Shown: one piece after another, positions 5,127 through 62,546 of the stretch
Layout: each line of letters starts with the position of its first letter
Position numbering within the stretch: the first letter of the stretch is position 1
Assembly (NCBI RefSeq): GCF_028369105.1
Contig: NZ_JAQNDO010000001.1
Coordinates: 2,473,711-2,537,710 of the forward strand
From: Polyangium mundeleinium
Lineage (GTDB): Bacteria; Myxococcota_A; Polyangia; Polyangiales; Polyangiaceae
Length of the DNA: 64,000 nt
Reading direction: 5' to 3'
Position numbers and translations under genes: made by a program
The notes under the pieces: generated by a model
What the model was told of the DNA's origin: nothing
Databases searched by the model: none
The model's input: only the letters and a program-made list of their open reading frames with translations

Positions 5127-5507
5127 ATGAAGCGGCACGCACCCACGAGCGCCGCCGGAGAAGGCAAGGCGCGGAAACTCGTGAAGGTCGGTCCGAACGG
5201 GAAAGCCCGCGTCGCGCCGATGCCCGAGCGGGCCCCCGTGGGGATGGTGCGGCCTCGCGCGCCTGCCGAGCGCCATTCTCTCCCCACGCTCGCCTCCCGG
5301 CGGAGCGGGGCGGTCCGCGGCGTCGGCGCTTGTTATAGCTGCGCGGCGCTCGGGGAGGTTCGTCTGTACGAAGCGGTCGACGTGGGCAAGGTGCTGCTCT
5401 GCGGCCCTTGCGCGGACAAGGCGCGCGCCGAGACGTTCGGCCGCGCCGAGCCGCTCGACCACGCCATCATGGTCGGCGGGTTCGAGACGAACCGAAGGCG
5501 GCACTGA
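5127..5507 (+). CDS. Small protein with two CxxC knuckles (zinc-ribbon-like)
   Basis: A 126-residue basic protein. The last third holds CYSCAALGEV and, 18 residues later, LLCGPCADKA: two CxxC pairs separated like a zinc ribbon or treble clef. The first 65 residues are Lys/Arg/Pro-rich and probably disordered. The start at 5127 has a GAGG about eight bases upstream. Zinc binding and a nucleic-acid or protein-interaction role are inference. It is followed by the remnant of an opposite-strand hydrolase and then by the radical SAM cassette. Confidence 0.65.
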   Translation: MKRHAPTSAAGEGKARKLVKVGPNGKARVAPMPERAPVGMVRPRAPAERHSLPTLASRRSGAVRGVGACYSCAALGEVRLYEAVDVGKVLLCGPCADKARAETFGRAEPLDHAIMVGGFETNRRRH

Positions 5508-5700
5508 TCACGCCGCCCGGGGCCTGGAGGATATCCATCGCCTCCCGGAGCATGCCCTGGGGGACGTAATGGCCCCCGTCGAATTCGTGGTACGTCACGG
5601 TGTATCCCGCGGATTCGAGGGCGGGGACGAGCCGCGCCAGACGGAAGGGGAGCCGTGCGAATCCCTGTCGTGCAGCGAACGGGTGCGTGATACCGTCCGC
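5467..5700 (-). pseudogene. 3' remnant of an alpha/beta-hydrolase (carboxylesterase/phospholipase type)
   Basis: Read on the minus strand, the gap before the radical SAM cassette encodes a recognisable C-terminus: a region around the catalytic Asp (ADGITHPFAARQGFARL), then LVPALESAGYTVTYHEFDGG followed by HYVPQGMLREAMDIL, the usual catalytic-His end of PF02230-like carboxylesterases. No N-terminal half (nucleophile elbow GxSxG) is present upstream, where the 210-residue gene begins at 5703 on the other strand. The frame runs on to a stop at 5467, overlapping the preceding gene's 3' end. This looks like a gene truncated by a rearrangement at about 5700. The alternative, a chance antisense frame, is unlikely because motif order and spacing fit the family. 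Confidence 0.5.
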
Positions 5701-5702
5701 GA

Positions 5703-6335
5703 ATGGCGAAGAAGCGGGAGGTTCAGGTCAACGCGGTGTCTCGTTACGAGAAGTCGTCGGGCCGCCTCGTGCTCGAAGAATACTCGAGCTGCGAGGTGCC
5801 GGCGGGGTGTGGCGGCGCGATCCTGCGATGGATCGACCCGCACGAGGCGCTGCCGCTCCACCTGTGGCTCTGGACGACGGGGCAAGCCGACCTCTTCTTC
5901 GACGGCGCGCCTTTCACGTCGAGCCGCGTCGATGCGCGCGCCGGCAGCCACGTGCTCGCGCTCTACGTGCGCCCCAAGGAAGATCTCCCGCCGCAACTCG
6001 CGCTCTCGTTCGGGTACTCCGACGACGCCAAGGGGGCCACCGATCCCGCGCGATCGCGGTCGATAGGCCGCAAGATCCAGGCTCTTTCGGGCGCGGGCGC
6101 CGTGATGGTCGGATCGACGAAGCAGCCCAGAGGGGATGGCTGGCGCCTGCCTGGCTTCGACGACGGCCGCTGGCAGCCCCTCGTCCGCATGAGCGCCGCG
6201 ACGAAAGAGCCCAAGAAAGACTGGCACCTCAAGCAGGTGCAAGAGACGGGCGCGTGCATCGTCGGTTTGCCTGGACATACAGGCCCGCTGTGGGTGCGTT
6301 GCTCCTTCGAGCTCGCGCTGGGAGGTGCCCCGTGA
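5703..6335 (+). CDS. Beta-sandwich protein, first gene of radical SAM cassette
   Basis: A 210-residue protein without signal peptide. The predicted structure is mostly beta. Its second half contains GDGWRLPGFDDGRWQPLVRM and, after about 30 residues, PLWVRCSFELAL, a pattern like the galactose-binding-fold domain at the N-terminus of many glycosidases (W..p.fDD..W ... lW.R..F.l). The first half (HLWLWTTGQADLFFDGAPF) is likewise beta-rich. It overlaps the radical SAM gene by four bases (GTGA), so translation is coupled. It may be a substrate, a recognition subunit or a chaperone of that enzyme; the sequence does not decide. The resemblance to sugar-binding domains is by eye only. Confidence 0.75.
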   Translation: MAKKREVQVNAVSRYEKSSGRLVLEEYSSCEVPAGCGGAILRWIDPHEALPLHLWLWTTGQADLFFDGAPFTSSRVDARAGSHVLALYVRPKEDLPPQLALSFGYSDDAKGATDPARSRSIGRKIQALSGAGAVMVGSTKQPRGDGWRLPGFDDGRWQPLVRMSAATKEPKKDWHLKQVQETGACIVGLPGHTGPLWVRCSFELALGGAP

Positions 6336-7651
6336 GCCCGCGGCCGCCCCTCGTGCTCGTGCCGCAGTTCTTCGGCTCGACCGTCTTCGATCGGCGAACC
6401 TCCCGGTATTTCCCATTCGATCACGAAGCGACCGACGTCCTCCTCCGCGCCCGCTCGACGTCGATCGGCGCGATGATCGACGCCGCCCCACCCGAGCGCC
6501 GGGATGCGCTCGGCGCGTTCGCCGCGGCCTTTTATCACAAGGATTTCTTCACCCACGATTTGCGGTTCGACGGCGAGGCCCTCGACGTCGTGCCGCCGGC
6601 CGATCACCTCACGGGGCCGCTCGCCGTGCACCTCGAGGTCGTCGCCGCGTGCAACCTCACGTGCTCGCATTGTTTTGCGGGCGAGCTCCCGCGCCGCGAG
6701 CCCCCGCTCACGCTCGCCGAGCTCGATACGCTGTTCGCCACCCTCGCACGGATGGGATCGTTCCGCCTCGGCCTCACCGGCGGAGAACCGCTGCTCCGCA
6801 AGGATCTCTTCGACATCCTCGATCTCGCGACGAGCCACGGCCTGCACCCGTGCCTCACGACGAACGCGCTCATGCTCACCGAGGAGACCGCGAAGAAGCT
6901 CGGCGAACGGTCGCTCGTCTGGCTCAACGTCAGCCTCGACGGGGCGACGGCCGCGACGAACGACGCGGTGCGTGGCGCGGGGACGTTCGATCGGGTGCTG
7001 GAGAAGCTCGTGATGCTTCGGGCGCACGCGCGATTCTCGCTCGCGTTCACGGTGATGCGTCACAACGCCGACGAGGCACGCGCGTTCGCCGAGCTCGCCG
7101 CGCGGACGGGCGCGTTCACGGCCGTGTTCCGGCCGCTTTATCCCGTGGGTTCGGCCGAGGCGCGGGAGGAGCTCTGGCCGTCGTTCGGCGATTACGAGCG
7201 CGCGCTCGACGCGATCTGGACCCTCGGCGGAGACGAAGCGGGCCGCCCCGCCGCCGTGCGCGCGATCGATCCGTTCTCTTCGAAGAGCCGCCGTGATTCG
7301 CAGGCGGTCGTCCAAGACAACTGGGGGTGCGGCGCGGGCAATACGGTCTGCTCCATTTCCGTCGGCGGCGACGTGAACCCGTGCAGCTTCCTCGGGCCCA
7401 CGTTCGTCGCCGACAACGTCCGCCGCGCCCCGTTCGATCACATCTGGAGCGAGGGCGAAAGGTTTCGCAGGATCCGCGGCCTGCCCGGCGACGGCACCGG
7501 CACGGCCACGTTCGGCGGCGGCTGCCGCGCGCGTTCGCTCGTCATGGCCGGCGACGTCAATGCCCCCGATCCCTGGCTCGCCGAGCACGAGAAAGTCCCG
7601 GCGCGCCGCAATCCGCTCACTGTGCTTCGCGCCCAGCGGAGGCTCGCATGA
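6332..7651 (+). CDS. Radical SAM/SPASM enzyme
   Basis: A 439-residue enzyme starting at the GTG at 6332, which overlaps the upstream stop. The radical SAM cluster motif is C107-x3-C111-x2-C114 (AACNLTCSHCFAG), followed by the GGEP motif (LTGGEPLLRKDLF) and TTNALML and NVSLDGA strands of the partial TIM barrel. The C-terminal part has SPASM/twitch-like cysteines (WGCGAGNTVCSISVGGDVN, PCSF, GGGCRARS), fewer than in a full two-cluster SPASM domain. This class installs crosslinks or other changes in peptides or proteins, or acts in cofactor synthesis. A 90-residue N-terminal extension (FGSTVFDRRTSRYFPFDHEA) resembles neither a RRE nor any domain I can name. It overlaps the next gene by ATGA. No short precursor peptide is evident. 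Confidence 0.92.
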   Translation: MSPRPPLVLVPQFFGSTVFDRRTSRYFPFDHEATDVLLRARSTSIGAMIDAAPPERRDALGAFAAAFYHKDFFTHDLRFDGEALDVVPPADHLTGPLAVHLEVVAACNLTCSHCFAGELPRREPPLTLAELDTLFATLARMGSFRLGLTGGEPLLRKDLFDILDLATSHGLHPCLTTNALMLTEETAKKLGERSLVWLNVSLDGATAATNDAVRGAGTFDRVLEKLVMLRAHARFSLAFTVMRHNADEARAFAELAARTGAFTAVFRPLYPVGSAEAREELWPSFGDYERALDAIWTLGGDEAGRPAAVRAIDPFSSKSRRDSQAVVQDNWGCGAGNTVCSISVGGDVNPCSFLGPTFVADNVRRAPFDHIWSEGERFRRIRGLPGDGTGTATFGGGCRARSLVMAGDVNAPDPWLAEHEKVPARRNPLTVLRAQRRLA

Positions 7652-8697
7652 AGCCCCTCGACACGGAATGGCTCCTCTCGGCCGATCACGTCTTGCCCTC
7701 GGCCGCGGAGCTCTTGCACCTCGCCGCGAAGCTCGCCGCGAACGGCGAGCTTGAAAAGGCCGCGACCGCCTGCGACGCTGCATTCCGCGTCGCCCCGGAC
7801 GATTCCGACGTTGCCTCTGCGCGCGCGCTCCTCCTCGATCGGCTGCGCATCGAGGAGCACGGCCTCGTCTTTCGGTACGTGCCCGCGGGGCCTTTTCTCA
7901 TGGGCGCGGAGGACGGCGACCCCGACGAGCGCCCCGTGCACGCGGTCGAGCTCGAACCCTTCTGGATCACGGAGGTTCCGATCTCGTGGTCCGCGTATCA
8001 CGCCCTCCTCGGCTGGTCCCCGCCGCCCTACGGCATGCCGCAGCACAAGCCGATCCGAGATCCGAAGACGGGCAAGTACGACGACGAGCTGTTCTTTCTC
8101 CACAACGATCACAAGATCCGGCGGAAGTATTGCGCGAGCGAGACCCTCCTCGAGCACGAGGTCCCGCCGAGCGACGCGACGCGCCCCTGGACGTACGACC
8201 AGAAGCCGATGGTCGCGGTCTCGTGGGCGCAGGCGAACGCGCTTGGAAAGGCGCTCTCGAACGATCGGGTGACCTACCGTTTGCCCACCGAGGCCGAATG
8301 GGAGAAGGCTGCGCGGGGCGGGCTCGTCGGTCGTCGTTATCCGTGGGGGGACGATCCGCCCACGCCCGAGCTTTGTGACTTCGATCGATTCGAGGCGTTC
8401 TCGATCCGTCCGCCGCAGGACTTCCCGCCGAACGGCTACGGTCTCCACGGGATGAGCGGCGGCGTCCGGGAATGGACCGCCGACGGATACGACGCCGCGT
8501 CTTACGCCGAGAGCCCGCGTGCGCGCCCCACGGGCCCCGCGACGGTGAAGCAGCGGGTGCTCCGCGGGGGCTCGTGGGCCGATTGCGCGTGGGCGGTGCG
8601 TGTCTCCTTCCGCATGGGGCACGCGCCCGACAGGGCGAGTGATCCGACGATTGGGTTTCGCCTGTGCCGGACGGCCCGCGGAACGACACGTCGCTGA
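7648..8697 (+). CDS. SUMF1/FGE-fold protein with TPR-like N-terminus
   Basis: A 349-residue protein. Residues 15-65 look like a TPR pair (ELLHLAAKLAANGELEKAA). From about residue 75 the SUMF1 fold is clear: YVPAGPFLMGAEDGDPDERP, WITEVPISWSAYHALLGW, PMVAVSWAQANALGKAL, YRLPTEAEWEKAARGG, GMSGGVREWTADGYD, RGGSW and GFRLCR. The paired active-site cysteines of true formylglycine-generating enzymes (Cx4C just after the RGGS motif) are absent; only one Cys follows RGGSW. It is therefore unlikely to activate sulfatases and more likely belongs to the broader SUMF1 group, which includes EgtB-like iron enzymes and non-catalytic members. It is translationally coupled to the radical SAM gene by an ATGA overlap. 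Confidence 0.9.
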   Translation: MKPLDTEWLLSADHVLPSAAELLHLAAKLAANGELEKAATACDAAFRVAPDDSDVASARALLLDRLRIEEHGLVFRYVPAGPFLMGAEDGDPDERPVHAVELEPFWITEVPISWSAYHALLGWSPPPYGMPQHKPIRDPKTGKYDDELFFLHNDHKIRRKYCASETLLEHEVPPSDATRPWTYDQKPMVAVSWAQANALGKALSNDRVTYRLPTEAEWEKAARGGLVGRRYPWGDDPPTPELCDFDRFEAFSIRPPQDFPPNGYGLHGMSGGVREWTADGYDAASYAESPRARPTGPATVKQRVLRGGSWADCAWAVRVSFRMGHAPDRASDPTIGFRLCRTARGTTRR

Positions 8698-56101: not shown

Positions 56102-57127
56102 TTACGCTCGGCGCGTGCGCCGCGCGGCGATGGCGGCTGCGGCGAGGACTGGCAGGAAAAACCCAGGCGCGTCATTGCTTTCGGGTGTATGCATCGTACA
56201 CCCGCCGCTGGAAGGGTTGGCCGGCGTCATTTCGCCGCCCTCACCGCCCTCGCCCCAGTCGCCTCCGCCCGCGCCGCCAGCGCCCGACGTCGAGGAGCTC
56301 GCCCCGCCGGGGACGACGGGTTGCGGGTCGTCCACGAGGTAAAGCGCGCCACGAATGAAAAGCACGGGCCGCGGGCGAAGGGGCGTTCCCTCGACGAGGG
56401 CAACCACGTCGGCCGCGGGGCGTACGGCGGCCGTTCCGAGGTCGAAGCGCCAGGTCGCTGCGGCGCCCGGCGTGACGAGCCTGCGCACGCCGCCGTCCAC
56501 GAGCCACACCTGCCCCGTGCCGTCGTCGGCCTGGACGAGCTCGGGTTTGTCGGGGATATCCGGGCCGTCGGGGAGGAGGTCGGCGTCGGCCGCGGGCAGG
56601 GGCAAGAGGTCCCAAAAAGACGAGAATCGCCAGGCGTCGTACGTGGGGGCGCCGACGACCTTGCGACGCACGCCGGATTGCGCGGCGGGCGGGCACTGGA
56701 GCGTGCGAGGGCTGTTGCCGAGCGCCGGATTGCCCTCGCCGCCGGTGTCGATTCCGTAGGCGTAGACGTCGCGGGCATTGCCGTCGTGCAGGGCGAGCGG
56801 CGAGGGGGCGAAGAAGCCGTGCTCGCACGAGCCGATGGCCGCGCAGAGATCGTCGCGGTGGACGTTCGCGCGGACGGCGATGGCAGGCGCGCCGGGGGTG
56901 CCCGCCGGGCCGCCGTAATAGACGTGGACGTCGATAGGCTGGTTCGGGACGTCGGGATCCTGGGCCCAGCCGGCGATGGCGTCGCACCCGGCGTTGTCGA
57001 GGTATCCCGTGGGCTGGACGGCGAACGCCGTCCGCGGGGCGAGGAGCGAAGACGCGAGGAGCGATGCCGCGGCGCCGAGGGTTCGCAAAGACGAGGGGGG
57101 ATGGGAAGGCAATGGCACGCGCCTCAC
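56102..57127 (-). CDS. Secreted protein with MYXO-CTERM-like anchor, coupled to DUF1552 gene
   Basis: A 341-residue protein starting at a GTG that overlaps the DUF1552 stop (GTGA). Sec signal (LGAAASLLASSLLAPRTAFA). Residues 30-130 look like a small beta domain (GYLDNAGCDAIAGWAQDPDV, PIDVHVYYGG). A Ser/Gly-rich linker with a CTMHTPE motif, a hydrophobic helix (FFLPVLAAAAIAA) and Arg-rich end form a sorting tail. Probably surface anchored. It is the third gene of the DUF1592-DUF1552 operon and may be a partner of those proteins. Confidence 0.85.
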   Translation of the reverse strand: MRRVPLPSHPPSSLRTLGAAASLLASSLLAPRTAFAVQPTGYLDNAGCDAIAGWAQDPDVPNQPIDVHVYYGGPAGTPGAPAIAVRANVHRDDLCAAIGSCEHGFFAPSPLALHDGNARDVYAYGIDTGGEGNPALGNSPRTLQCPPAAQSGVRRKVVGAPTYDAWRFSSFWDLLPLPAADADLLPDGPDIPDKPELVQADDGTGQVWLVDGGVRRLVTPGAAATWRFDLGTAAVRPAADVVALVEGTPLRPRPVLFIRGALYLVDDPQPVVPGGASSSTSGAGGAGGGDWGEGGEGGEMTPANPSSGGCTMHTPESNDAPGFFLPVLAAAAIAARRTRRA

Positions 57128-58479
57128 ACGAGGATGTCGCCGAAGGCCTCGGACGTCTGGCCGCCGTTCCAGCCGAAGCTCGGCGTTTCGAGGCCGACGC
57201 CGCGCAGCATGGTGACGTGGGCCTTGCTGTAATTGCCGCCGGGATTGCGGACGTGGACGTTGCGGCGGATGTTCCCATTGGCGCCGCCCGCGAGGACGCA
57301 GGGCATTTCGGCGACGCTGTGCTGATACCCCTCGCCATATTCGGAGAGGCCAAAGACGAGCGCGCGATCGAGCAGCGTGCCCCCCGTCGGCTCGACGACG
57401 GCCTGGAGCCGGCCGAGGAACGCCGCGAAGGCCTGCATTTGATACAGGATGCCCGCGCGGGCGTGCTCCCAGGCACCCTCGTGGACGGTGGTATGAAAAT
57501 CGTTGGGCACGCCGAGGTTTCCGAAGACGTGCGTCGTCGCGGGGGAGCTCAGCATGAACGAGAAGACCCGCGTCATGTTGCAGGCGAGCGCCGAGGCGAG
57601 CAAAGAGCCCATGATCTCGGTCTTTGCGACGAGCTCCTCGTTCGGCGCGGGTTTGCCCGGGGGCGCGCACGACTCGCCCGAGAATTCGAGGCGGTTCTTG
57701 ACGGTGTTGAGGTGTTCGAGGTGTGCCTCGATGCGCTGCTTGTCGGCCGCGCCGACGCGGCCCGAGAGGCTCTTCGCGTCCTCCAGGACCGCATCGAGCA
57801 GGAGCGCCCGGCGCTTCATGCCGGCCGTGTCCGCCGCGACGCCAAACAGGAGATCATAAAGCTGCCCCGGATCGAGGATCGGCGGGTTCAGGTCGTCCGG
57901 ACCGTTGTACGAGATTGCGTTCCAGTGCCCGTAATCGTGGAAGCGCGCGGTGCTCGCGCCGAGGACGAGGGAGCGGAAGCGCGGGGCTTCCGGGCCATAG
58001 AAATCCGGGTGTTTCGCGATGTACTGGTCGAGCGTCGGGCGCAGCGCAGTGAGCGTGTGCGAGGGGTGATCGAATCCCTCGGGGCGAATGCGATCGCCGG
58101 TCATCGAGACCATGAAGCCCCGCATGTGCCCGTCGCTCTGGCCCGCCGGGAGATCCGGCACTTCGGTATGCGGCGTCAAACCCGTCACGACGCTCGGCTG
58201 ATAGGGCGCGAGCGGCGCGAGCAGCTCGCTCGGCGTATAGTCCTTGCCGGTCGTGGAGGGCGTCCAGAGGTCGGGGTGGCCGGCCTGGGGCGCGCCGTGG
58301 CCGTCGTGCCAGGGCAAACCGCCGCCCCAGAAGAAGATGCCGAAGATCGGCCCGGTGGACGCGGCCTCGGCGCCGCGCGCTCCGAGCATTGCTTCGAGCG
58401 TGGGCAAGGCGAGGGCGACGGCCGTGCCGCCCACGGCGCCCCGGAGGAAGGTTCGTCGGGAAAGGGGCGTGGTCTTCAC
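57124..58479 (-). CDS. DUF1552 family Tat-exported protein
   Basis: A 451-residue protein starting at a GTG with AGAGGAGAG upstream. The twin-arginine signal is LSRRTFLRGAVGGTAVALAL. Body motifs such as GIFFWGGGLPWHD, LAPYQPSVVTGLTPHTE, GFDHPSHTLTALRPTLDQYI, SFMLSSPATTHVFGNLG and FGLSEYGEGYQHSVAEMP fit DUF1552, in which the sequence often resembles sulfatase/alkaline-phosphatase-like proteins. The gene is coupled at both ends by GTGA overlaps. DUF1552 genes are usually found next to DUF1592 genes in Planctomycetes and Myxococcota. Function unknown. Confidence 0.94.
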   Translation of the reverse strand: MKTTPLSRRTFLRGAVGGTAVALALPTLEAMLGARGAEAASTGPIFGIFFWGGGLPWHDGHGAPQAGHPDLWTPSTTGKDYTPSELLAPLAPYQPSVVTGLTPHTEVPDLPAGQSDGHMRGFMVSMTGDRIRPEGFDHPSHTLTALRPTLDQYIAKHPDFYGPEAPRFRSLVLGASTARFHDYGHWNAISYNGPDDLNPPILDPGQLYDLLFGVAADTAGMKRRALLLDAVLEDAKSLSGRVGAADKQRIEAHLEHLNTVKNRLEFSGESCAPPGKPAPNEELVAKTEIMGSLLASALACNMTRVFSFMLSSPATTHVFGNLGVPNDFHTTVHEGAWEHARAGILYQMQAFAAFLGRLQAVVEPTGGTLLDRALVFGLSEYGEGYQHSVAEMPCVLAGGANGNIRRNVHVRNPGGNYSKAHVTMLRGVGLETPSFGWNGGQTSEAFGDILV

Positions 58480-60142
58480 GGTCTCTCCTCTTTGCCGATG
58501 TAACGGAAGGCGTCGTGCGTGACGAGCTCGATCAAGAGGGTGCGGAAATCGAAGGAGGCGCCGGCGAAGCGCGAGGCGAGGTCTTCGAGCGCGAGCCGCT
58601 CGCCCTTCGTCTCGACGCGCCCCTGCGCGTGGCGATAAAGCTGCTGGACCATGCAACGGCCGACGCGGGGCTCGGTTTCGAGGACCGTGGCGAGCTCGCG
58701 CGCATTCGCGAGGGATTTGCGTCGAGGTCGCCGGACGAATCGATGGGCACGTCACCCGCGAAGACGGTGCGGTAATACCCCGACGAGTCGAAATGCTCGA
58801 AGAGGAAGCCGGGCGGGTCCATGAAGTTGTGGCACGCGGCGCAGGCGGGGTTCGTGCGGTGCGCCTCCATTTGCTCGCGCACCGTTTTGGGGTCGCCCAT
58901 CGGTGGATCGAGGGTCGTGTCGACGCCCGGAGGCGGGGCCGGGACCTCCAGGCAAAGGACACGCTCGCGGACGTATTTGCCGCGCGCCGTGGGCGAGGTG
59001 CGGGTCTCGTGGGCATTCATGGTGAGGAACGCGCCGAGCGTGAGCAGGCCGGCGCGCGGACCGTCCGCGGGCAGCTCCACCGGGACGAACATGTCCGTCG
59101 TCGCGCCGGGCGCCTCGATGCCATAAAGCGCCGCGAGGTCCGCATTCACGAACGTCTTGCGGGTGCTGAAGATGCTGCGCGCGTCGCCGCGGCTTTCGAA
59201 GACGACGTCGTCGACGAGGAGCTCGACCTCGCGGCGCATGGCTTCCTTGAGGGTGGGCGTGAAATACGGATACGCGGCCGGGTCGCGCTGGACACCGTCG
59301 AGGCGGCCGAGGTCGAGGTATTGCCGGAAAAACGCCTGCATGGCCGAGCGCGCGCGTGGATCGTCGAGCAGGCGCTCGGCCGCCGCGGCGACGCCTTCGG
59401 GTTTGTCGAGCTCGCCTTTTTCGGCGGCGTCGAGGAGCGCGTCGTCCGGGCCCTGGTTCCAGAGGAGGAACGAGAGGCGCGTGGCCATTTCGTATCCCGT
59501 GAGCTTGCGCCGGCCGGGGGCAGCATCGTCGGGGACGCCGACCTCGGCCCGATAAAGGAAATGAGGGGACTGGAGCAAGCCCGAGACGGCGAGGCGCAGG
59601 CCCTCCCACGCGCTCGGATCCGCGAGGGTCTGCGCGATTCCGACCCAGCGAGCGGCCTCCTCGTCCGTGAGCGGGCGCCGGAAGACACGCCGGCCGAAGC
59701 GACGCAGGAAACTCTCGACGCAGGCGTCGCCGGGCGCGGCGGGCTCGCAGCCGACGAAGGCCGCACGCCGGGCCGGATCGGCGAACGCGTAGCGCGTGAT
59801 GGCGTCGGCGGACTCCTCGTATTGCTGCACGCCGAACTCGGAGAGCGTCGTGCTCGAAGCGCCGATGTTGTAGAAGAGAAACGGCTTCGTGTCATCTTCG
59901 AGCGGCGCCTTCGGCATGCTCGCGCCGAAGAGCTCGATGAGCGAGTTCTGGTACTGCGCGGCCGTGAGGCGCGGGAGCGCGGGCGCGGCGAGGACGAGCG
60001 ACTCCGCTTCGGTCGTGTCCTCGTCTGCGTCGCCGATGACGCCGACGCATGCGGTGAGCGAAGCGCCGAAGACGGCGATTGCCGCTGAAAACCCGAGCCA
60101 CCGCGCTCGGGATCGCCCAGGATGCGGACGTTTTTGGACCAT
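58476..60142 (-). CDS. DUF1592/DUF1588-type c-haem lipoprotein (one apparent frameshift)
   Basis: A lipoprotein (lipobox ASLTAC) of about 555 residues once corrected. Domains in order: DUF1587-like (LPRLTAAQYQNSLIELFG), DUF1595-like (FLRRFGRRVFRRPLTDEEAA), DUF1592 (YEMATRLSFLLWNQGPDDAL), DUF1588 (LTMNAHETRTSPTARGKYVR) and a haem c motif CAACH (NPACAACHNFMDPPGF), then DUF1585-like. The uncorrected frame derails after SSGDLD at about 58720 and stops at 58532; adding one base there restores DLDGKSLANARELATVLETE and ends in a GTGA overlap with the DUF1552 gene. This is either a sequencing error or a recent mutation. Confidence 0.88.
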
Positions 60143-60300: not shown

Positions 60301-62010
60301 GTGGCTCCTGTTCCCGTGACGTTTTTCTACCGGCCGGAGCGGCCCGCGGCGTTCGCGTCGATCTGCGGGGAATGGTCGGCGTTCCATCCGACGCCGATGG
60401 CGCGGCGCGAGGACGGGTCGTTCGAGGCGACGATCGAGGCGGCGATCGGGGTGCACGAGTACAAGCTGCACGTGGAGGGCGCGCGCTGGGAGCTCGACCC
60501 GGACAACCCGCGAACACGGGCGCGGGGCGGCCTGCGGAACAACGTGCTCGTGGTGGGCGGCGCGGACGAGCCGATCCTGCACGCGCCGGTGCGCCCGTTC
60601 GTGGGCGTGGAGGAGGACGGTCGGCTCTGCATTCGCGCGGCGCTCCGTCGCGGGCACGGGAGCGGCCTCGTCGTGCGGTGGGACGAGGGTGCAGGGATGC
60701 GCGAGGAGGCCATGCGGGTCGATGCGGAGGAGGACGAGCACGTTGTCTTCGAGGCGCGGCTGCCGGCGTCGGCGCGGCGCGTCTCGTACGTGTTTCGATT
60801 GGAATCGGGGCGGCTCGTCGGGCGCGCGGGCGGGGCAGGGCAATGGTTCACGATTCCGAGGCCGGAGGCGCCCCAAGGCGCGGGGCGGGGCGAGGGCGCG
60901 GCGGCGATTGCGATTGAGGGGGCCTCGGCGTCGGAGACGTCCGGCGACGCGTTTCGCGCGGGGCGCGTGGTCGCGCCGCTGCCCGTGCGGCTTTACGTGA
61001 CCGTGACCGAGCGGTGCAATCTGCGCTGCGCCCATTGCATCACGGACGCGCCGGAGAAGACGCGGAGCGGGCGCGCACGCACGGTGCAGCCGTGGCTCCT
61101 CGACGCGCTGCGGGAGCCGTTCGCGGCCGCCGCGTACGTGGGCTTCGTGCACGGCGGCGAGGCGCTCGTGGCGCCGATTTTCCCGGAGGTGCTCGCGGCG
61201 ATCCAGAAAGGCCGCGCGGGTCGTCCGGGCCGCACGGACGTGCACTTGCTGTCCAATGGAATGGCGCTCGACGAGGCGCGGTTCGATGCGCTCTGTGATC
61301 TCGGGCTGACGAGCCTTTCGCTTTCGCTCGACGGCGCGACGGCGGGGACCAACGACGGGCTCCGGATCGGCGGGCGGTTCGCGACCCTCGTGAAGAACAT
61401 CGAGGGCATGATCCGGCGTCGCGCGGCGCGTGGGGTCGACGTGCGGATCGGGATCTCGACGGTCGTGACGGCCTCGAACGTGGACGAATTGCCCGCGCTC
61501 GGGAGGCTCGTGGCTTCGCTCGGGGTCGATTGGTTGAAGGTCGAGGAGGTTTTTCCGTGCACGACGCGGGCGCAGGTCGAATGGATCGATCCGCGGGGGG
61601 AGCGGGTGCTTCGTGGGATCCGCGAGCTCGGGGCGATCCTCGCGCCGGCGGGCGTCGTGCTCGTGGATCATCTCGATCCCGGCGGCGCCTGTCCTTGCGT
61701 GGCCGGCGATGATCCCGCGTTTCAGGTTTTTCGCGCGGCCGACGATTTCGCCAATCGCACGCGTTTCCTGACGTGTCGCATGGAATGGGAGCAGGCGTGC
61801 ATCGACCCGGATGGCAGCGTGCATCCCGTGGCGTACGAGGCGCCGATGATCGGCTCGCTCGCGTCGTCATCGCTCGTCTCCCTGTGGAACGGAGAGGTGA
61901 TGCAGAGCCTGCGTCGTGCAGCGCTTTCCAGGACACCGTCGCTGATCCGGCAGGCGTGCCCCGAGGCGTCTTGCGTCCCGACGCCGCGGCGTGCCACGAT
62001 CGCGCCATGA
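60301..62010 (+). CDS. Radical SAM protein with N-terminal CBM48- and CBM34-like domains
   Basis: A 569-residue protein. Residues 5-86 match the glycogen-binding E-set (CBM48/AMPK-beta) pattern (VTFFYRPERPAAFASICGEW, GVHEYKLHVEGARWELDPDN). Residues 100-186 resemble the N-terminal domain of neopullulanases (LVVRWDEGAGMREEAMRVD, VSYVFRLESG). After a linker, the radical SAM motif is C239-x3-C243-x2-C246 (VTERCNLRCAHCITDAPE), then GFVHGGEALV, LLSNGMALD, SLSLDGATAG and a C-terminal CRMEWEQACIDPDGSVHPVA with distal Cys. The start is the GTG at 60301. The end overlaps the CAP/SCP gene by ATGA. It may modify a protein or peptide bound near glucan; the target is unknown. Confidence 0.85.
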   Translation: MAPVPVTFFYRPERPAAFASICGEWSAFHPTPMARREDGSFEATIEAAIGVHEYKLHVEGARWELDPDNPRTRARGGLRNNVLVVGGADEPILHAPVRPFVGVEEDGRLCIRAALRRGHGSGLVVRWDEGAGMREEAMRVDAEEDEHVVFEARLPASARRVSYVFRLESGRLVGRAGGAGQWFTIPRPEAPQGAGRGEGAAAIAIEGASASETSGDAFRAGRVVAPLPVRLYVTVTERCNLRCAHCITDAPEKTRSGRARTVQPWLLDALREPFAAAAYVGFVHGGEALVAPIFPEVLAAIQKGRAGRPGRTDVHLLSNGMALDEARFDALCDLGLTSLSLSLDGATAGTNDGLRIGGRFATLVKNIEGMIRRRAARGVDVRIGISTVVTASNVDELPALGRLVASLGVDWLKVEEVFPCTTRAQVEWIDPRGERVLRGIRELGAILAPAGVVLVDHLDPGGACPCVAGDDPAFQVFRAADDFANRTRFLTCRMEWEQACIDPDGSVHPVAYEAPMIGSLASSSLVSLWNGEVMQSLRRAALSRTPSLIRQACPEASCVPTPRRATIAP

Positions 62011-62546
62011 AACGCATTTCACCTTTCTATGGGCTCGTGCTCGTTCCTTTCCTTCTGGCCGCCGCGGGCTGCTCTGACGACGAGGGAGGCGGCAACACGA
62101 ATGCGGGCGAGCCGGCCTCGATGCAAGGGATCACGGAGGCCCACAACGCGGCGCGCGCGTCCGTCGATCCGCCGGCCGCAGAGCCGCTGCCGCCCCTCGT
62201 CTGGTCGTCCAAGATCGCCGCTGTCGCCCAGGCCTACGCAGAGAAATGCGTATGGGAGCACAGCAGCAATGACTACGGCGAGAACCTCTACGCGAGCTCC
62301 AATGGCTCGACCGCCGAGAAGGTCGTCTCGAACTGGGTCTCCGAGAAGGCCGATTACATCTATTCGTCGAACGAATGTTCGGACGTGTGCGGCCACTACA
62401 CCCAGGTCGTCTGGGCGAAGACGACGAGGCTCGGGTGCGGCATGGCGAAATGCAGCACGGGCTCGCCGCTCGGCGGCGGGGATTGGGAATTCTGGGTTTG
62501 CAACTACGATCCGCCCGGGAACTACGTCGGGCAGAAGCCGTACTGA
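62007..62546 (+). CDS. CAP/SCP-domain lipoprotein
   Basis: A 179-residue lipoprotein (lipobox LLAAAGC) with a CAP (CRISP/allergen V5/PR-1) domain: ITEAHNAARASVDPP, WSSKIAAVAQAYAEKCVWEH, YGENLYASS, VVSNWVSEKADY, CGHYTQVVWAKTTRLGCGM and WVCNYDPPGNYVGQKPY. The His and Glu residues of the conserved cavity are present. It overlaps the radical SAM gene by four bases, so both are made from one transcript, and it is a candidate substrate. Bacterial CAP proteins are envelope-associated, mostly of unknown activity. Its stop abuts the next gene's stop (TGATCA). Confidence 0.94.
   Translation: MKRISPFYGLVLVPFLLAAAGCSDDEGGGNTNAGEPASMQGITEAHNAARASVDPPAAEPLPPLVWSSKIAAVAQAYAEKCVWEHSSNDYGENLYASSNGSTAEKVVSNWVSEKADYIYSSNECSDVCGHYTQVVWAKTTRLGCGMAKCSTGSPLGGGDWEFWVCNYDPPGNYVGQKPY

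Follow-up and report, generated by a model that had tools for sequence, protein, structure and literature searches.

The question raised by this locus is what a radical SAM enzyme does with the front end of a glycoside hydrolase, and how it came to carry one. The window analysed here, a stretch of 64,000 nucleotides of Polyangium mundeleinium, holds a gene whose product joins CBM48- and CBM34-like domains to a radical SAM domain and, immediately downstream, a gene for a CAP/SCP family protein (Table 1). The original prediction, made from the letters of the stretch, had cited no described enzyme of this architecture, had taken the CAP protein as a candidate substrate or partner of the enzyme and had suggested a possible tie to glycogen or envelope glycans. 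The reading developed below, to which an even chance is given, is that an ancestral glucan enzyme of four domains was split in Polyangium, that the window gene encodes its radical SAM half, and that the two halves still form one system in trans.

Table 1. Coordinates of the radical SAM gene, its parts and the overlapping CAP gene in the window.
Feature	Positions	Strand	Details or evidence
CBM48/CBM34-like front end joined to a radical SAM part, whole gene	60301..62010	+	569 aa, GTG start
CBM48 / AMPK-beta-like domain, residues 1-88	60301..60564	+	Pfam and residue alignment
CBM34-like (alpha-amylase N) domain, residues 89-187	60565..60861	+	Pfam below cut-off, model, Foldseek
Low-confidence, fast-evolving linker, residues 188-216	60862..60948	+	Model, omega, alignment to L041
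Radical SAM core and SPASM/twitch-like C-part, residues 223-556	60967..61968	+	Pfam, alignment, structure comparison
CAP/SCP family protein, 179 aa, putative lipoprotein-type N-terminus	62007..62546	+	PF00188

Domain organisation and predicted fold

Pfam profiles placed AMPK1_CBM (CBM48, PF16561) at residues 19-86 of the window protein (27.6 bits, cut-off 26.8), Radical_SAM (PF04055) at residues 234-368 (43 bits, cut-off 29.5) and SPASM (PF13186) at residues 492-541 (26 bits, cut-off 21.5), and found no GH13 catalytic barrel in the protein. Alpha-amylase_N (CBM34, PF02903) matched residues 91-169 below its cut-off of 23 bits (14.9 bits, or 17.2 for the N-terminal part alone); the family profile and the first Foldseek row nevertheless indicate CBM34. 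In the AlphaFold model (mean pLDDT 87.4), beta domains consisting almost wholly of strands occupy residues 1-187; residues 192-208 form a disordered linker, after which comes the radical SAM part. Ranked by E-value, Foldseek puts first 4aef (E 1.5e-13), an amylase that the PDB sequence list calls neopullulanase and whose low fit (TM-score 0.20, rmsd 27) arises because the match spans a whole chain of several domains; SkfB, BlsE and SuiB follow. The predicted union of a GH13-type, CBM48/CBM34-like front end with a radical SAM domain was thus borne out by Pfam, the model and Foldseek alike. Among other libraries, NCBIfam matched the protein with 56 families, none of them at cut-off among the 25 listed, the defence library with viperin models only (the fused relative L041, described below, matches viperin and GlgB) and PHROGs with a single general radical SAM entry. 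A group of DUF1552 and DUF1592/DUF1588/DUF1595/DUF1587 genes (57124-60142, - strand) lies divergent from the radical SAM gene.

Across six Polyangium genomes (15 pairs), mean omega was 0.21 for the CBM48 part, 0.26 for CBM34, 0.81 for the linker, 0.24 for the radical SAM part and 0.16 for CAP, and both genes are held by purifying selection.

As regards docking, passages of PMC4032982 name W100, K126, W133 and N150 as the four critical sugar-contact residues of AMPK beta1, and passages of PMC6274970 report that W100G and K126Q each abolish glycogen binding by AMPK. The window equivalents of these named residues are F28, K55, W63 and N80, three of the four being kept. The W100 equivalent is phenylalanine in 6/6 Polyangium window-type proteins and tryptophan in the other 15 aligned rows, and glucan binding could therefore be weakened in Polyangium, although the substitution at F28 retains an aromatic ring. 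The same module families, CBM48 in AMPK beta and CBM21 in PPP1R3, place an enzyme on glycogen in eukaryotes; there, however, the enzymes are unrelated, whereas the window protein is bacterial and its CBM48/CBM34 part is predicted to bind glucan.

The radical SAM part

The cysteine motif C239-C243-C246 (CxxxCxxC, window numbering) is conserved in 21/21 rows, and together with HGGE (residues 284-287) it is kept in 27/27 rows of a 28-row alignment of the window protein and its relatives; these motif columns, like the GH13 columns considered below, are assigned roles that we take to be catalytic. Further downstream, C466 and C492 occur in 21/21 rows and C553 in 20/21, C464 and C500 being present in 12/21 and 13/21. 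A full SPASM domain with two auxiliary clusters has seven C-terminal cysteines. With three conserved downstream cysteines, the window protein fits at most one auxiliary cluster and is therefore not filed as a full, seven-cysteine SPASM protein.

Structure comparison by VIA-align over residues roughly 204-565 gave Z-scores of 21.1-22.5 for SkfB, SuiB, DesII, anSME and BlsE (SkfB 22.5, SuiB 22.2, anSME 21.1). These SPASM/twitch enzymes share with the window protein the radical SAM core, the SAM-cluster motif and the SPASM-like C-part, but differ from it in the number of C-terminal cysteines and in having no glucan-type front end. Since the peptide maturases SkfB, SuiB and anSME score much like the sugar enzymes BlsE and DesII, the fold does not choose between these two kinds of chemistry. 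Pfam detected no RiPP-recognition domain in the protein, and space for a small precursor gene is scant, with 158 bases upstream, a four-base overlap downstream and a convergent gene adjoining the CAP stop.

Fused relatives with a GH13 barrel

A search for the same fusion in other genomes, in which genes at the relatives' loci were called with a dynamic-programming caller, revealed a longer form. Myxococcota relatives carry the same radical SAM part within proteins of about 970-1320 aa ordered CBM48-CBM34-GH13-radical SAM. In most relatives a GH13 barrel separates the front end from the radical SAM part; the window protein is a short form without it. Within the host's family, the radical SAM family was matched (E <= 1e-40) in 19/108 genomes, three of which (G007, G017, G018) have a single frame of about 1100 aa in which front end and radical SAM part match at separate places. 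Local BLAST at 20 non-Polyangium loci found both parts matching one ORF with a long insert between them in 17, the remaining three being L036, L039 and L053. In L041 (1048 aa) the insert comprises 513 residues, a GH13 barrel plus C-domain, at the position of the window linker; Pfam recognised an alpha-amylase catalytic domain in 7/7 full-length fusions scanned. The L039 fusion (5350-7080) retains just the last portion of GH13 and has an opposite-strand gene before it, either a rearrangement or an assembly fault.

At order level the family was present in 25/183 genomes with 26 matches. Frames of 993-1481 aa account for 17 of these and the Polyangium short form for six; two run into a contig end (G012, G475), and in G302 the frame is broken into pieces of 786 and 223 aa. 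GH13-like sequence also occurs in the G476 and G460 frames. The short form was seen only in Polyangium, in 6/6 genomes, where the own genome and G085-G089 form one genus and all six are treated as Polyangium. A phylum sample yielded 15 carriers among 377 Myxococcota genomes, one of them outside the class. A short-pattern scan of 84,980 species, a method that reaches close relatives only, returned 10 loci, titled Polyangium or myxobacterial/deltaproteobacterial MAGs. Loci L031-L034 repeat G085, G088, G086 and G087 (in the 28-row alignment L031 duplicates L055), and L037 and L036 belong to G414 and G444, respectively (100% identical DNA).

The GH13 nucleophile Asp and acid Glu are each conserved in 18/18, and the His-Asp pair in 19/19, covering rows of the same alignment. 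This part is closest to neopullulanase, maltogenic amylase and cyclomaltodextrinase, CBM48/CBM34-GH13 enzymes (4aef; TVA II, 1jf6) whose front end resembles that of the window protein and whose domain order and catalytic residues resemble those of its fused relatives; in contrast to these enzymes, the window protein is without the GH13 barrel and its relatives run on into a radical SAM enzyme. In two genomes a radical SAM/BATS (biotin synthase-type) gene directly precedes the fusion with a 1-base overlap (L091 5364-6245, L093 4221-5222).

No fusion of GH13 and radical SAM was described in the literature searched, which covered openly licensed PMC papers; passages of PMC1249566, PMC8841776 and PMC8436480 matched on common words only and held no such fusion, and searches on radical SAM carbohydrate enzymes and on radical SAM, glycogen and myxobacteria gave nothing further. 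As predicted, therefore, the architecture of the window protein has no earlier description there, and neither, as far as found, has any polypeptide that combines a glycoside hydrolase with radical SAM chemistry. Conservation of the fusion, with the catalytic residues of GH13 and radical SAM both retained, indicates that some myxobacteria tie radical chemistry to the handling of alpha-glucan.

A reciprocal half in Polyangium

A second locus in 6/6 Polyangium genomes encodes a CBM48-GH13 protein of 657-661 aa without a radical SAM part; in the own genome this GH13-only gene lies at G000:C1:11398405 (L060) and the window gene at C1:2534011. Trees divide the fusions into two groups. In the radical SAM tree (31 rows), group 2 forms one clade (100/100), with group 1 and Polyangium on the other side (100/100), Polyangium adjoining the fusions L096 and L041 (92/87). 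The CBM-GH13 tree (29 rows) places the GH13-only proteins on the group-2 side (100/100), their position inside or as sister to group 2 being left at 44/38, and they are 46-52% identical to group-2 fusions over almost the whole length. In the N-domain tree (35 rows), window-type front ends go with group 1 and GH13-only front ends with group 2 (97/98), and Polyangium stands next to ten of the twelve rows of group 1 rather than among them (84/76). The radical SAM trees omit L053 and L097, and the other two omit L036, L039, L053 and L097; several rows of the radical SAM and CBM-GH13 trees have an unusual letter make-up. Outgroup branches of 2.9-8.8 changes per site made outgroup rooting fail, so four outgroup radical SAM proteins were left out of the final radical SAM tree and the trees are read unrooted.

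Compared with L041, the window protein lacks residues ~197-709 and has about 31 linker residues instead. Given its grouping with group-1 fusions, the short form was most likely derived from a group-1 fusion by loss of the GH13 part of about 510 residues. The group-2 copy most likely lost its radical SAM part, which the 44/38 placement makes the simpler reading rather than a proven one. Because both groups share the four-domain order, the fusion would predate the split between them, and Polyangium would have lost opposite parts from two paralogues; with the root not fixed, reciprocal loss is the simplest reading but falls short of being proven. All six Polyangium genomes represent a single evolutionary event, and G017 keeps both a group-1 and a group-2 fusion at full length. 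With both halves kept in 6/6 genomes, such a loss from paralogous fusions would exemplify duplication with a subsequent division of labour, and the genus offers a natural experiment, its halves lying at two loci so that each can be tested alone.

Two other histories for the short form can be set against this one. Domain shuffling, by which the radical SAM gene captured the front end of its own genome's GH13 gene, has in its favour that the two Polyangium front ends are 47% identical over residues 21-161; it is the least probable of the readings considered, since the front ends fall in different groups (97/98), forcing them together costs 19 log units with their sisterhood rejected (AU p 0.026), and the window front end is closer to that of a group-1 fusion (52% to L041). 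That the short form is ancestral and the barrel a later insertion is likewise very unlikely: the barrel would have had to insert beside the very N-domain that usually accompanies it, the root would have to fall on the Polyangium branch, and group 2 has the identical domain order, even if the root of the radical SAM tree is not fixed, its outgroups being too distant, and the N-domain tree puts Polyangium beside most group-1 rows.

Neighbouring genes and co-occurrence

Group-1 fusions usually stand with an upstream lipoprotein-like gene bearing CBM21 (PF03370; 29.3-48.1 bits in three scanned neighbours, cut-off 28.9), whose family profile matches PPP1R3B and a glucoamylase. Group-2 fusions stand with another lipoprotein-like gene, F1, for which no family exceeded its cut-off in nine scanned; its model is beta-rich (pLDDT 82.5) and gave one PDB row at E <= 0.001 with a TM-score of 0.16, no convincing match. 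F1 was considered as a CBM21 protein, but the profile comparison covered 54 C-terminal columns only with a probability of 18%, and F1 is therefore not called one. Loci of both groups may also have a PHP-domain gene. Among 24 usable fusion loci (L036, L049 and L053, at contig ends, and the odd L039 being left out), a CBM21 or F1 gene was present in 21/24 and a PHP gene in 11/24. In 6/6 Polyangium genomes, F1 and PHP genes lie beside the GH13-only gene; as the lipoprotein-like gene has stayed with the GH13 half, the set of lipoprotein, GH13 and radical SAM persists although the fusion is split. The lipoprotein-type N-termini of the CAP, CBM21 and F1 proteins are putative, read by eye.

Co-occurrence was followed in the 377-genome Myxococcota sample, three profile searches being treated as one sample because they share the same draw and their listed parts agree. 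The CBM21 profile matches exactly nine genomes (G260, G300, G302, G351, G372, G403, G414, G427, G444) and the F1 profile exactly six carriers of the radical SAM family (G000, G086, G088, G089, G006, G329), which together are exactly the 15 genomes with that family. Fisher's test on 9/0/0/368 gave 2.6e-18, a value inflated by relatedness. Six of the nine CBM21 genomes had fed their profile (L092, L095-L098, and L037 for G414), as had five of the six F1 genomes theirs; G351, G403 and G444 are independent CBM21 finds, each with its CBM21 gene on a contig other than the fusion's. The CBM21 profile found no such gene in the own genome; a PF03370 search was also blank, but its controls stayed silent too. 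The F1 family (L060 5260-6381 and relatives) occurs in this sample only in group-2 carriers.

In G017, a second CBM21-like gene without a signal-like N-terminus (L043 10656-12604; 27 bits against 28.9) overlaps a different radical SAM/SPASM gene, and this pair adjoins the group-1 fusion. Homologues of the second radical SAM gene in G427 (L133) and G443 have no CBM21 neighbour, L133 lying near a GH94-type gene.

The overlapping CAP gene

The CAP protein matches PF00188 at 82.4 bits (cut-off 21.1). As had been noted, its ATG at 62007 overlaps the TGA of the radical SAM gene by four bases (ATGA), and this overlap is kept in 6/6 Polyangium genomes. The own genome holds six CAP-family matches. Homologues (E <= 1e-20) occur in 38/108 genomes of the host's family, six Polyangium and 32 others, and just two of the latter (G007, G012) also have the radical SAM family; G007 has CAP genes at 3.48 and 9.19 Mb and its fusion at 0.61 Mb, megabases apart, and blastp found no gene of the window CAP cluster at the fusion loci examined. 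Being frequent in relatives without the radical SAM family, CAP appears to be a common protein that became coupled to the radical SAM gene in Polyangium. The proposal of an enzyme-partner pair therefore stands as far as linkage within that genus goes and is not supported as a general association; a functional link in Polyangium is possible, though not required.

A model for the system and its rivals

The domains of the fusion and its CBM21 neighbour are of alpha-glucan families, and the front end remains under selection in the form without a barrel, so the radical SAM part most likely acts on a glucan-derived sugar or at a glucan surface. The suggested alpha-glucan tie is thus supported in part, by the GH13 domain in the same chain of relatives and by the adjoining CBM21 genes. 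In the form we would propose tentatively, the radical SAM enzyme alters glycogen or malto-oligosaccharides on alpha-glucan, in a four-component system with GH13, a glucan-binding lipoprotein and a PHP phosphoesterase. An ancestor of the order CBM48-CBM34-GH13-radical SAM would have been kept as one chain by most Myxococcota carriers found, and the Polyangium ancestor would have retained a group-1 copy without GH13, the window gene, and a group-2 copy without radical SAM. From the reciprocal half and the co-occurrence, an alpha-glucan system has probably been split, the window gene being its radical SAM half, and the two halves probably work in trans; this cooperation, the glucan binding and the glucan-derived substrate are what we infer beyond the observed architecture, conservation, trees and co-occurrence. 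CBM48 and CBM34 would anchor the enzyme to glycogen or maltodextrin as the alpha-glucan, GH13 would supply or trim an oligosaccharide, and the radical SAM site would cleave SAM, its 5'-deoxyadenosyl radical modifying a glucan-derived sugar; oxidation, epimerisation or dehydration may be guessed as the reaction, and the removal of a phosphate by the PHP protein is likewise a guess.

Protein maturation is the main rival, and a less likely one: here the radical SAM part would be a protein or peptide maturase of its lipoprotein partner before export (CAP, or CBM21 and F1 proteins elsewhere) or of the GH13 domain, and the CBMs would only position it on glycogen. SPASM-like peptide maturases (SkfB, SuiB, anSME) are among the top structural matches, lipoprotein-like genes accompany most usable fusion loci, the CAP overlap is constant in Polyangium, and the second radical SAM gene of G017 overlaps a CBM21-like gene, all of which would suit a maturase. 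Yet in Polyangium F1 remained with the GH13 half and not with the radical SAM half, CAP is common in genomes without the radical SAM family, the homologues of the second G017 enzyme are without a CBM21 neighbour, and the scant room for a precursor gene and the absence of a RiPP-recognition domain by Pfam also speak against it. Still less probable is that the short form is a relic, its front end left over from the lost GH13 part and no longer glucan-binding, its radical SAM part having drifted to a CAP-linked job. Such a relic would account for the replacement of the W100 equivalent by phenylalanine in short forms only, for the lack of a CBM21 partner detectable with the CBM21 profile in the own genome and for CAP as a new neighbour, but the omega values of CBM48 and CBM34 are as tight as that of the radical SAM part, and three of the four AMPK contact positions are intact.

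Elsewhere in the window, at about 5703-8697 (L004 596-3590, the window coordinates being derived by assuming a 1500-base flank of L004), three overlapping genes encode a 210-aa protein without a Pfam match, a radical SAM/SPASM protein of 439 aa and an FGE-sulfatase-type protein.
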